Positions 13,357-23,917 of a stretch of DNA of 64,000 nt are shown here, piece by piece. The notes below the pieces were generated by a model. The model saw only the letters and a list, made by a program, of their open reading frames with translations, was not told the origin of the DNA and did not search any database. The stretch is from positions 23,711 through 87,710 of IMG/VR virus record IMGVR_UViG_3300025093_000015; one strand, written 5' to 3'. The number at the start of each line of letters is the position of its first letter. Position 1 is the stretch's first letter. The position numbers and the translations under genes were made by a program. Source of the stretch: a virus.

Positions 13357-13381
13357 AATAATCTATTTAATTAGTTAACTG

Positions 13382-13455
13382 TACACCCAGTAGGACTTGA
13401 ACCTACAACCTACAGCTTAGAAGGCTGTTGCTCTATCCAATTGAGCTATGGGTGC
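13382..13455 (-). tRNA. tRNA-Arg (anticodon UCU)
   Basis: A complete cloverleaf on the minus strand. The acceptor arm GCACCCA pairs with TGGGTGT (one G-U at the end); the D-arm is AGCTCAATTGGATAGAGCA; the anticodon arm ACAGC closes loop CTTCTAA with anticodon TCT; the T-arm carries GTTCAAGTC. CCA is not encoded. It reads AGA, by far the commonest Arg codon in this phage, so it would supplement host supply for AGA-rich late genes. Confidence 0.96.
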
Positions 13456-14390: not shown

Positions 14391-14539
14391 AGTCTAGATT
14401 TTTTAAAGTTATACGTGAGTTCAATGTCAAGAAAAGGTAATAACAATATAAAATCTATTGACTTACTTCTCTTTTGGTAGCCAAATCCTACACCAATGAA
14501 TGGTATAACACCTAGTCTACAGTTAAATTTCTTTTTCAT
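14387..14539 (-). CDS. Small conserved-type protein, 50 aa
   Basis: A short frame MKKKFNCRLGVIPFIGVGFG, continuing with YQKRSKSIDFILLLPFLDIEL. The alternating hydrophobic and glycine pattern predicts a small beta-rich protein, a type I have seen in phage genomes (F...G..ig.gy......i.f.lP...i.l). It is the first gene of the minus-strand block and its stop overlaps the next start (ATGA). Upstream lies the structured region. Confidence 0.65.
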   Translation of the reverse strand: MKKKFNCRLGVIPFIGVGFGYQKRSKSIDFILLLPFLDIELTYNFKKSRL

Positions 14540-14560
14540 AATAGTAATTTAATGGTTAAT

Positions 14561-14575
14561 AATAAAGTTTGAGTT
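14561..14575 (+). promoter_or_regulatory. AAGTTTGAGT motif before structured region
   Basis: AATAAAGTTTGAGTT matches the motif that precedes the tRNA-Arg gene. It ends just before the longest stem of the structured region begins at 14,578, placing a predicted start of transcription about there. The -7 box is imperfect (AAAGTTTG). Confidence 0.42.
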
Positions 14576-14577
14576 AA

Positions 14578-14711
14578 TAAATGATGAGTGACACTAGTGC
14601 AGGTCTTGTTTTTATTTGGGCATTTGTATGGATTTCTCCATCTCCCTGTCCTCAGAGATTGCTACTCTGTTATGCTTCATTACACTAGCAGACTGTCACT
14701 CATCAAGTTTA
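14578..14711 (+). repeat. Long inverted repeat forming a three-way-junction-like fold
   Basis: TGATGAGTGACA at 14582-14593 is the exact reverse complement of 14694-14705. The next six bases, CTAGTG, pair with CACTAG at 14683-14688 across a 5-base bulge, and TAAA/TTTA extend the outer end. Inside, CAGG/CCTG enclose a hairpin ATGGA-TTTC-TCCAT, followed by a CAGAG/CTCTG hairpin. Confidence 0.85.
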
Positions 14712-14718
14712 AATTGCA

Positions 14719-14774
14719 AACCATCTTTAATCTTGCAAGAGTACGTCTATATTTTTCAATATATAAAGATGGTT
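14719..14774 (+). repeat. Inverted repeat, 11 bp
   Basis: AACCATCTTTA (14719-14729) pairs perfectly with TAAAGATGGTT (14764-14774). The loop contains the palindrome TCTTGCAAGA. Confidence 0.8.
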
Positions 14775-15176
14775 CTAACCTTCACGATAAGGACTTACTA
14801 TGGTATTACAGTAATGACCAACCCAATACTGCCTATTCAAATGATGGTGTATTATATTAAAGCAGTTTATCTTCTTGCTTAGGAATACGCTGTTGCCAAT
14901 GTTATGAAATTGACTAATAGTACAGCCTTTCTATTTTTTAATATTGCGGATACATATATGCTCATCCTATAGAGAGAGAACATAAATATAATATAGGCTA
15001 TAACAACAAGTCTCTATCTATTACCGAATCTAACGGCTGAGTGGTCAAGAGGCCAATAGATGACTCTCACATCTTAAACCTTGTCATTATAGCTATATTA
15101 TATATTACTGTGATTAACAGTTGTAGTTGTGGATTAAAGTGGTAATATGTGGGAAATAAGATCTCACACACACAAT

Positions 15177-15200
15177 TTAATGCACACAATTAATTTTTTT
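15177..15200 (+). terminator. Possible terminator of the structured RNA
   Basis: A short hairpin TTAAT/ATTAA over a 7-base loop is followed directly by a run of seven Ts. The stem is short and AT-only, so this is a weak call. Confidence 0.35.
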
Positions 15201-15226
15201 GTCACTCAATTGTATTAAGTGTTAGT

Positions 15227-15273
15227 GTAACTGTGCATAGTAGTGTGGATGTAACGTAGCTATGCAGAGTTAC
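15227..15273. repeat. Inverted repeat, 13 paired bases with one mismatch
   Basis: GTAACT-G-TGCATAG (15227-15240) pairs with CTATGCA-G-AGTTAC (15260-15273) around a single G-G mismatch and a 19-base loop. It lies 20 bases beyond the stop of the minus-strand gene at 15,294 and could stabilise or end that transcript, although no T-run follows. Confidence 0.75.
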
Positions 15274-15293
15274 AGCAAGTACTAAACAGAATC

Positions 15294-15587
15294 TTAGATA
15301 GATTCTGCCCAGTACATACCAGTTGGTTCATCTGTTTCCTGGTCAAGGACCGGATTAGATGACAACTGGAATCCCTTAATCTCTTGGTTCTTCTTAAGAC
15401 CAAGAGTGGATGGGTCAAGGGAATTACCTGATTCATCCATAAGGCATAGTAGACCGTAGGTCACGGAGCCTTGTTCTCTGTCATAGACAGTTACACCGTT
15501 GATAGTGGACTTTTTAGTCCCTAGCACGGCAGTTTTTACTATGATAGTATTATTTACTATCTTGTGGAAAAAAATTGACTTTGTCAT
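15294..15587 (-). CDS. Hypothetical protein with atypical composition, 97 aa
   Basis: The start is ATG 15587 (MTKSIFFHKIVNNTIIVKTAVLG), just after an A-rich leader; a longer frame needs TTG. The sequence looks beta-rich (STINGVTVYDREQGSVTYGLLCLMDESG) and ends in an acidic stretch. No family recognised. The gene is clearly richer in G and C than its neighbours and uses third-position C/G often (for example ACC, GTC, CTG complements), as strongly expressed genes here do. It is a monocistronic minus-strand unit between the structured region and the first late promoter, suggesting abundant early product or recent acquisition. Confidence 0.75.
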   Translation of the reverse strand: MTKSIFFHKIVNNTIIVKTAVLGTKKSTINGVTVYDREQGSVTYGLLCLMDESGNSLDPSTLGLKKNQEIKGFQLSSNPVLDQETDEPTGMYWAESI

Positions 15588-15712
15588 TTTTTTTGGTTTT
15601 AATTGATCCACACTTTGACATAGGGGGTGGATATTGCCCAATGATAAGACGGGGAGCTGATCAGTAAAACCTTTTCACAACTTAACACATACAAAATTTC
15701 CATAGGCCAAAA

Positions 15713-15735
15713 ATTTTTAGTATATTATAGTATAC
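15713..15735 (+). promoter_or_regulatory. Late promoter motif (TATATTAT), copy 1
   Basis: ATTTTTAGTATATTATAGTATAC shares the core G-TATATTAT with six other sites that precede plus-strand genes. The core is at 15721-15728, 55 bases before the ATG of the UVR-like gene. Confidence 0.7.
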
Positions 15736-15783
15736 ATAGATCCTTTATAGAAAGGTTTGTTTAACACTTAAAAAATAAAATAG

Positions 15784-16104
15784 ATGGACAATTATGACTC
15801 ATTTGATGACATGGATGGAATGGATGGTCTAACACTCTCACAAAGGATGCATGTAGAGGAATTGATAATAGATGCAGCGTTTAGAAACTCATTTAAGATT
15901 ATAACTGGTAATAAGACTTTAGAGGATTTACTTGATAAGAAGTCTGATGATCCAAACGCAATGCACGCAATATGTGCGCATGAGCCTGGTGAAGAGCCAA
16001 GCATAGATACACTAGAAAATATGATGGCGTATTTTGTAGAAACTGAGGAATATGAAAAATGCGCTAAAATAAGGGATATAATAAATGTACGTATACAAGG
16101 CTAA
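15784..16104 (+). CDS. UVR-motif-like small acidic protein
   Basis: A 106-aa acidic protein. Residues 75-104 (DTLENMMAYFVETEEYEKCAKIRDIINVR) resemble the UVR motif, a helical hairpin found in UvrB/UvrC and in McsA/ClpC-type proteins, where it binds partner proteins. The N-terminus is Asp/Met-rich (MDNYDSFDDMDGMDGL). First gene of the late transcript; its end overlaps the thermonuclease gene by 20 bases. Role unknown, probably protein binding. Confidence 0.75.
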   Translation: MDNYDSFDDMDGMDGLTLSQRMHVEELIIDAAFRNSFKIITGNKTLEDLLDKKSDDPNAMHAICAHEPGEEPSIDTLENMMAYFVETEEYEKCAKIRDIINVRIQG

Positions 16105-21732: not shown

Positions 21733-23917
21733 AATTGTACCTACATACAAAGATGGTAAATGGACTACAACTGATTTTAAATCAAGAGAAGACTTTACTA
21801 AATATATTTTAACTTTATTTAAAGAGCCAGGGCAGTATCAATTTGATGAGACTGCTCTGCTTTTTAATAATGAAGCTACTATATTTAACAAGAATGGTTT
21901 TTACTGTGATAAACCATTTAGATCAAAAGATTATATAAAATATTGGGAAGATCAAAAACATAAATGCAGAGAGGGTGTTCTATACCATGGTAAGAAGAAT
22001 ATATTTTATTTAACTAGAGATTATTACATGTGGTTAAACTTCTTACCAATCTTTGATAAAGAAGAAAAGAAGTATGGTTTTGCAAAAGTTAGAGATGCAC
22101 AATATCATATGGCCTTATATGAACTACTTGCAGAATTACATTATAAGCATGCTGCTATCTTAAAGAAAAGACAGATAGCTTCATCATATTTTCATATGGC
22201 AAAACTTTTAAATCAGTTCTGGTTTGAAGAAGGGTCTATATGTAAAATGGGTGCTTCATTAAAAGATTATATTAATGATAAAGGTTCTTGGAAGTTTTTA
22301 GATGAATATAAAACATTCCTTAATGAACATACAGCTTGGTATAGACCATGTACACCTGAGAAGGTATTGCTATGGGAACAGAAGATAGAAGTAAGAATAA
22401 ATAATAGAAAAACTAACAAAGGACTTATGTCTAAAATACAAGGTGCATCTTTTGAAAAAAATGCAACAACAGGTGTAGGTGGACCTTGTACTTACTTCTT
22501 TCATGAAGAGGCTGGTATTGCTCCAAAGATGGATCAAACTTATGAGTATATCAGACCAGCCATGTCATCTGGTATGATTACTACCGGTATGTTTATAGCT
22601 GCAGGATCTGTGGGTGATCTTGATCAGTGTAATCCTCTAAAGGAAATGATACTTAATCCACAATCAAATGATATATACGCTGTAGAAACAGATCTAATGG
22701 ATGATAAAGGTGGTTTTGGTATTGCAGGTCTATTTATACCAGAACAGTGGTCTATGCCCCCTTATATTGATAAATACGGTAACTCACAAATAAAAGAAGC
22801 TTTGCAAGCTATTAAAGATGAAAGAGGTCAATGGGAAAAAGATTTAGCACCAGAACAATATCAATTACGTATATCACAGAAACCTATTAATATTGCAGAA
22901 GCTTTTGCTTATAGACAAGCATCTATATTTCCACAAGGTATTATTGCTAAACAATTAAAGAAGATTGAAGATAAAGAATATTCTTATGAGTTTATACAAC
23001 TAGAACGTGATCAAAAAGGTATAACAGCAAAAAGAACTAAAAAATTACCTATATCTACTTTTCCTGTAAAGAAAAAGATGGAAGATAAAACTGGATCACT
23101 TGTAGTATGGGAAAGACCAATTAAGAATCCAGACTTTGGTACATACTATGCATCTATTGACCCTGTATCAGAAGGTAAAACAACTACATCAGATTCATTG
23201 TGTAGTATATTTGTTTATAAAAATCCAGTAGAGGTTACAAGAGAAACACCAGATGGATCTGAAACATTTATAGAAAAAGATAAAATAGTAGCATCATGGT
23301 GTGGTAGATATGATGATATAAATAAAACTCATGAGCAATTAGAAATGATTATAGAGTGGTATAAAGCATGGACTATTGTTGAGAACAATATATCTTTATT
23401 TATACAACATATGATTGCTAAAAGAAAACAAAAATATCTTGTACCTAAACAGCAAGTATTATTTTTAAAAGATCTTGGCTCAAACAGAACTGTATATCAA
23501 GAGTATGGTTGGAAAAATACAGGAACATTATTTAAAAATCATTTAATATCTTATGCAATAGAATATATTAGAGAAGTGATAGATGAGGATTTAGATGATA
23601 ATGGAGAAGTAATATCACAAACATTTGGTATAGATAGAATACCTGATCCAATGTTGTTAACAGAAATGTCACAATATTATCCTGGATTAAACGTGGATAG
23701 ACTTGTAGCTTTTTCTGCATTAGTTGCATTTGCTAAGGTTCAACAGTCTAATAGAGGCTATTTAAAACGTAAAGAACTGGATAAGTCAGCAAATAACTTG
23801 GATAATTCAAGAAATTTGTATAAATTATCTATGAGCCCTTTTAAGAATTTAGGGAGGGGTAAAAAGAATAATGGAAGTAAAAAATTTAGAAAGTCACCTT
23901 TTAAAAATATAAAATGA
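21725..23917 (+). CDS. terL: Large terminase subunit
   Basis: A 730-aa DNA-packaging motor. The ATPase half has a degenerate Walker A at KKRQIASS (residues 147-154) and Walker B at TYFFHEEA (256-263, catalytic Glu pair). The nuclease half begins at YASIDPVSEGKTTTSDS with metal ligand D479, and includes later acidic residues (DRIPDPMLLTEMSQY). Length and the K-K-R-Q-x-x-x-S form match crAss-like terminases. The C-terminus is Lys/Ser-rich (KKNNGSKKFRKSPFKNIK). Order groES-terL-portal is typical of the module. Confidence 0.92.
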   Translation: MYKIVPTYKDGKWTTTDFKSREDFTKYILTLFKEPGQYQFDETALLFNNEATIFNKNGFYCDKPFRSKDYIKYWEDQKHKCREGVLYHGKKNIFYLTRDYYMWLNFLPIFDKEEKKYGFAKVRDAQYHMALYELLAELHYKHAAILKKRQIASSYFHMAKLLNQFWFEEGSICKMGASLKDYINDKGSWKFLDEYKTFLNEHTAWYRPCTPEKVLLWEQKIEVRINNRKTNKGLMSKIQGASFEKNATTGVGGPCTYFFHEEAGIAPKMDQTYEYIRPAMSSGMITTGMFIAAGSVGDLDQCNPLKEMILNPQSNDIYAVETDLMDDKGGFGIAGLFIPEQWSMPPYIDKYGNSQIKEALQAIKDERGQWEKDLAPEQYQLRISQKPINIAEAFAYRQASIFPQGIIAKQLKKIEDKEYSYEFIQLERDQKGITAKRTKKLPISTFPVKKKMEDKTGSLVVWERPIKNPDFGTYYASIDPVSEGKTTTSDSLCSIFVYKNPVEVTRETPDGSETFIEKDKIVASWCGRYDDINKTHEQLEMIIEWYKAWTIVENNISLFIQHMIAKRKQKYLVPKQQVLFLKDLGSNRTVYQEYGWKNTGTLFKNHLISYAIEYIREVIDEDLDDNGEVISQTFGIDRIPDPMLLTEMSQYYPGLNVDRLVAFSALVAFAKVQQSNRGYLKRKELDKSANNLDNSRNLYKLSMSPFKNLGRGKKNNGSKKFRKSPFKNIK

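Follow-up and report, generated by a model that had tools for sequence, protein, structure and literature searches.

What does a crassvirus keep in a stretch of its genome that is rich in hairpins and holds no gene? Few gut phages are as abundant as the crassviruses, and the question is raised here by a noncoding gap at positions 14540-15293 (754 nt) of a 64,000-nucleotide stretch of virus DNA, positions 23,711 to 87,710 of the 87.7-kb IMG/VR virus record IMGVR_UViG_3300025093_000015; the whole of this stretch is referred to as the window. An earlier note, made from the letters of the window, had pointed to a gene-free, hairpin-rich region about 1.1 kb from a tRNA gene and had read it as one very large plus-strand RNA, belonging to the ROOL or GOLLD classes or to a new one. 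The region is real, a tRNA-Arg gene lies where a tRNA had been placed, and the three stems of 22, 11 and 13 pairs that had been named are all present (Table 1). The content of the gap is noncoding, structured, minus-strand and mosaic, and it is uncatalogued in Rfam. The reading that we regard as probable is that of a control site with exchangeable cassettes of structured RNA strung out behind it, carried on the minus strand of a crassvirus.

An uncatalogued noncoding interval

The window encodes the Pfam families Crass_capsid (major capsid protein, 3e-34) and crAss_MUZ (muzzle protein, 9e-23), which place it among the crassviruses. The gap is bounded by two minus-strand genes. A conserved protein within it, which the earlier note had named as grounds for abandoning an RNA, was sought, and no conserved protein-like open reading frame was found there; the similarity between translated sequences is short, is spread over several frames and lies where blocks of DNA are conserved. 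Folded as a whole and compared with 20 shuffles for each strand, the gap reaches a z-score of -4.3 on the minus strand and -1.9 on the plus strand. Searches with Rfam covariance models at the gathering score brought nothing but tRNA to threshold. Neither the window nor 16 relatives gave a gathering-score match to ROOL or GOLLD, and in positions 14391-15783 both were absent at E values up to 10. No report on noncoding RNAs of crassviruses was found in the open-access literature.

Relatives were collected from IMG/VR. With P0001, the gene immediately upstream of the gap, as query, 11 loci were recovered; the constant sequence AATAWATAATATAGCTAT common to these loci retrieved 54 stretches and a second constant motif 34, and 41 distinct loci with both motifs were kept after removal of chance hits and duplicates. 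The capsid proteins of the relatives are 81-96% identical to that of the window. The best cultured relative of this protein stands at 27.7% identity, so that cultured relatives are distant, and the INPHARED cultured phages gave no DNA match for the window, for the cassette M1 described below, or for two stretches of other loci.

A hypervariable hairpin with a fixed base

Comparative evidence comes from a hairpin whose body differs in almost every phage, and which in most copies nevertheless folds closed by a fixed base. The body found in the window has no detectable similarity to that of any of nine relatives. Across 26 non-redundant phages, arms folded with their own partners reach -18.5 kcal/mol as against -11.8 +/- 0.6 kcal/mol when partners are permuted, and none of 20,000 permutations attained the former value. 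Counted pair by pair, 77.9% of cells are paired (71.1% in shuffles, and fewer in slid registers), and 46 cells are changed on both sides where shuffles give 24.1 (0/500); in the negative control, a misregistered pair count, there is no excess. The pairs also carry a direction. Read in the minus sense the hairpins contain 87 G-U pairs, roughly three times the 30 found in the plus sense, and the closing pair itself is G-U in 25 of 30; the excess points to the minus strand as the one from which the RNA is read. A minus-strand RNA structure is maintained by compensatory change in the base of the hairpin and in M1.

Hairpin bodies recur between loci. That of L067 is found again in L023 and, as judged by eye, the body of L025 recurs in L053 and that of L068 and L069 in L083, L086 and L095. 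No exact copy of the fixed motif of 48 nt that follows the hairpin was found in the collection of cellular genomes.

The cassettes and a second RNA

Beyond the fixed motif lie three cassettes, of which M1 defines an RNA family with 16 members (from a core scan and the loci already in hand). Common to the members are UAGAAAGG, a helix of five pairs, an inner arm that varies, the sequence GCGUAWUCCU and, on the 3' side, a hairpin whose loop is conserved; they include strictly conserved positions that are unpaired. Their lengths, 81-123 nt, differ by amounts that are not multiples of three, which supports their noncoding status. Pairing is found in 90.4% of cells as against 81.8% in shuffles, and in less than 50% in every slid register; both sides have changed in 8 of 15 pairs, with 26 double-changed cells where 11.2 are expected (0/500 shuffles). 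A covariance model of M1 (R1) recovered shorter further copies in L029 and L085 (E values of 4e-7 and 1e-6), in which, by eye, the first helix takes two further forms, GUAG/CUAC and AUAU/AUAU. The L088 record, with a capsid protein at only 26% identity, also contains M1. A resemblance of one M1 loop to the hatchet ribozyme led to a search of the L088 copy, in which no Rfam hatchet match was obtained at E values up to 10. A gene-specific riboswitch was likewise rejected, as M1 stands upstream of differing genes in different phages.

The remaining cassettes are of narrower distribution (Table 1). M3 folds at a z-score of -4.6 on the minus strand and -2.7 on the plus strand, and has no comparative support. 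A short hairpin, AACAGAGTAAACTGTTTAAATC, is often placed between cassettes or modules and before genes, where it appears as a separator; it occurs in 34 stretches of viral_contigs, for example in L039.

A second RNA family, R0, lies outside the gap beside the tRNA-Arg gene and was found in 22 loci. In ten copies its third helix (P3) is 98.7% paired, with both sides changed in 10 of 15 pairs (0/500 shuffles), so that compensatory helix changes are found at the hairpin base and M1 inside the gap and at P3 beside it. The earlier note had proposed to look for covarying pairs in relatives, and these are the ones that appeared. R0 of the window folds at a z-score of -4.4 on the minus strand and -1.3 on the plus strand, and it has no Rfam match. 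Its loop is UAUAGCUA in many relatives, a self-complementary sequence through which two copies might pair with each other.

Table 1. Features of the gap and its surroundings (window coordinates; aa, amino acids)
Feature	Position	Strand	Remarks
P0001, upstream gene, 97 aa	15294-15587	minus	adjoins the element in 22 of the 41 loci; lies outside the RNAs
Inverted repeat	15216-15282		13-pair stem of the earlier note; z-score -2.8 minus, -3.9 plus, hence of greater stability as plus strand
DNA box	15191-15099	anatomy read along minus	alignment of 36 copies; TGTG and CCAC repeats within 15107-15191
Small inverted repeat ACTGT-TAATC-ACAGT	15107-15121		just before the AT-rich end; arms covary between phages
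AT-rich near-invariant AATATATAATATAGCTAT	15089-15106	minus	at box end; overlaps 5' arm of hairpin
Hypervariable hairpin RNA	14991-15098	minus	constant base; body exchanged from phage to phage; coevolving arms
Fixed 48-nt motif CTCTCTCTATAGGAT...CCGCAATATT	14984-14937	minus	ends in CCGCAA; after hairpin
Cassette M1	14935-14852	minus	RNA family of about 85 nt; three helices, conserved unpaired core
Cassette M2	14851-14713	minus	holds the 11-pair stem ACCATCTTTA/TAAAGATGGT; common to L001 only
Cassette M3	14705-14582	minus	closed by the 22-pair imperfect stem; found only in this genome
Downstream gene, 50 aa	14387-14539	minus	right border of array; a leader precedes the gene after M3
R0, three hairpins	13561-13456	minus	outside gap, directly upstream of tRNA-Arg
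tRNA-Arg (TCT)	13381-13455	minus	1.1 kb from gap

Several observations on the arrays of relatives may be recorded here. A gene-free module of about 400 nt is conserved in a few records (L029, L032, which is the same as L062, L055 and L080) and is the nearest thing in these data to a large ornate RNA. Pieces resembling tRNA, with a T-arm and an acceptor-like stem, lie inside the RNA arrays of L006, L029, L053, L054 and L124; ARAGORN made no call on those of the first four. The record of L080 (245,646 bases) has a pair of capsid genes, with 86% and 81% identity to that of the window, and is possibly two phage genomes joined in assembly.

Exchange between phages

Replacement of the cassettes is seen where the flanking sequences are nearly identical. 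In the comparison of the window with L001 and L002, the preceding gene and the following genes are 95-97% identical and the box at the head of the array 94-95% identical; between these flanks the body of the hairpin has been replaced in both phages, the fixed motif is retained, and M1 occurs in L001 but is lacking in L002. The nine close relatives compared retain just the box and the 48-nt motif, the remainder being exchanged; among them M1 is found in L001 and L004 alone. In L005, L006 and L011 a small open reading frame occupies the slot after the fixed motif.

These findings bear on the large RNA that the earlier note had envisaged. ROOL and GOLLD are conserved large structured phage RNAs of obscure function, often found near tRNA genes (PMC12286853). 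The interval in question is like them in phage origin, in overall size, in its many stems and in its proximity to a tRNA. They are, however, single large RNAs with Rfam models, whereas the present interval is a mosaic of RNAs of roughly 80-140 nt that match none of those models, and no single RNA is conserved over several hundred nucleotides, relatives replacing all of it apart from the box and the fixed motif. A single large ornate RNA, of the ROOL/GOLLD kind or of a new class of that kind, is therefore very improbable; of the earlier proposal of a new class, what stands is a structured and uncatalogued interval, and what falls is its unity. Bacterial Y RNAs offer another likeness in that they too are structured, and some related arrays hold the tRNA-like pieces noted above. 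A Y RNA with a Ro/TROVE partner was considered and set aside, as a TROVE protein is encoded in none of the 16 related records, some of which are fragments. A TROVE protein does occur among the early genes of crAss001 (PMC10136315).

The DNA box and the origin question

At the head of the array, the aligned copies of the DNA box share an order of TGTG repeats followed by CCACA, ACCACTT and CCACA at a spacing of about 10 bp, and a near-invariant end, ATAATATAGCTAT. The two halves of the box do not keep pairing, as judged by eye in the alignment, and the box was accordingly rejected as an RNA. The small inverted repeat at the edge of its AT-rich stretch does covary (3.81 pairs as against 3.24 +/- 0.13 when permuted, 0/20,000). 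In this respect it recalls the hairpin promoters of phage N4, with a small inverted repeat directly upstream of an AT-rich site; the crassvirus polymerase, however, differs in type from that of N4. The box would most likely serve as a replication origin or an early promoter, roles that would be compatible.

An origin had been named in the earlier note as the main alternative to an RNA, and it may be partly right. In its fuller form this explanation would make the whole interval a replication origin and the hairpin its primer or copy-control RNA, as in plasmids of the ColE1 or R1 type, with divergence of the hairpin keeping related phages from interfering with one another. Several features fit. 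The evenly spaced CCAC repeats and the AT-rich end adjoin the hairpin, the covarying repeat lies at the edge of the AT-rich stretch, the fixed motif is single-copy in 8 of 10 larger records, and genes for helicase and primase are among the minus-strand genes to the left of the gap, the replication genes being on that strand. The GC-skew minimum of the window falls inside the gap at 15108, and over 21 loci the minimum has a median offset of -1 nt, with single minima straying by as much as 0.9 kb. Some 0.5 kb from this minimum, however, transcription diverges and so confounds the skew, which is no proof of an origin. M1, M2 and M3 would be superfluous for an origin, and M1 is located elsewhere in other phages. 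The antisense or primer RNAs of ColE1- and R1-type plasmids are comparable in having a hairpin beside an origin-like site and a stem that is kept despite sequence divergence; here, in contrast, whole hairpin bodies are replaced, beyond the loops alone, and cassettes are common to distant phages. We consider an origin of this kind, embracing the whole interval, to be rather unlikely, and an origin-linked RNA remains the main rival as regards the purpose of the array.

Neighbouring genes and flanking signals

The first plus-strand genes begin at 15784, and the gap, flanked as it is by two minus-strand genes, is not itself the divergent region. For P0001, neither Pfam nor PHROG gave a matching family. 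Only the closest relatives (L001-L003) have the inverted repeat at 15216-15282 in common with the window. The promoter and terminator that had been suggested to flank the region do not stand out from chance, with 8 promoter-like sites against 6.6 +/- 2.5 expected and 1 terminator-like site against 0.5 +/- 0.7 expected. A motif like TTWGTATATTATW..GTAWAC, probably a late promoter, recurs upstream of plus-strand genes at 15590-15780, 26740, 32150, 33610, 36390 and 60030.

RNA cassettes or DNA elements

It may be asked whether the structures are RNAs at all, or are rather DNA elements such as cruciforms or protein-bound inverted repeats. Pairing is present on both strands, and the inverted repeats at 15121-15107 and 15216-15282 may well be DNA elements. 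For the array this explanation is improbable in view of the threefold predominance of minus-sense G-U pairs in the hairpin, of U-G pairs kept in the minus sense by R0 and M1, which the opposite strand would present as A-C mismatches, and of the strictly conserved unpaired positions of M1. The same pairs, in hairpin, M1 and R0, favour the minus strand over the plus-strand reading of the earlier note.

A number of points weigh against an array of minus-strand RNA cassettes. The RNAs are predicted from sequence comparison and folding, and their transcription is presumed. Kinship among the sequences inflates the shuffle tests. Three of 39 hairpins (L055, L071 and L076) pair worse than most swapped arms. 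M1 of the window, folded by itself, does no better than shuffles (z-score -0.2), its support being comparative, and M2 and M3, found in two genomes and in one, have structures that rest on folding. As for the box, the segment between the skew minimum and the point of divergence is intermediate in skew.

With these points considered, an array of exchangeable RNA cassettes is still the explanation we prefer, and three layers may be distinguished in it. The first would be the DNA box, serving as origin or early promoter. The second would be a hairpin RNA that starts at the box, its base constant and its body freely exchanged, with the fixed 48-nt motif after it; the third would comprise M1, M2 and M3 as separately folding RNAs. 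Early transcription may run from the box through the array, the cassettes may be released as separate RNAs, perhaps at the separator hairpins, and exchange could proceed by recombination in the fixed blocks.

Purpose and significance

The purpose of the cassettes is the least certain part of this account. We suggest, tentatively, that they are accessory regulatory RNAs or RNAs directed against host defence; this is favoured because the content of the array turns over in the manner of phage accessory gene islands, and because the slot holds small genes in some relatives. A broader and still more speculative proposal is that crassviruses carry a landing site at which fixed flanking sequences let structured RNAs be swapped, an RNA counterpart of hypervariable anti-defence gene islands; it would bring together two or more uncatalogued families of RNA (M1 and R0) and a hairpin body that is nearly phage-specific.

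Two compact families of RNA, both strongly supported by comparison, and a locus that swaps RNAs as other loci swap genes provide concrete targets for study. The conserved unpaired positions of M1 resemble those of RNAs that bind ligands or proteins or that are catalytic. If the cassettes do counter host defence, RNA would take its place beside small proteins in the conflict between phage and host.
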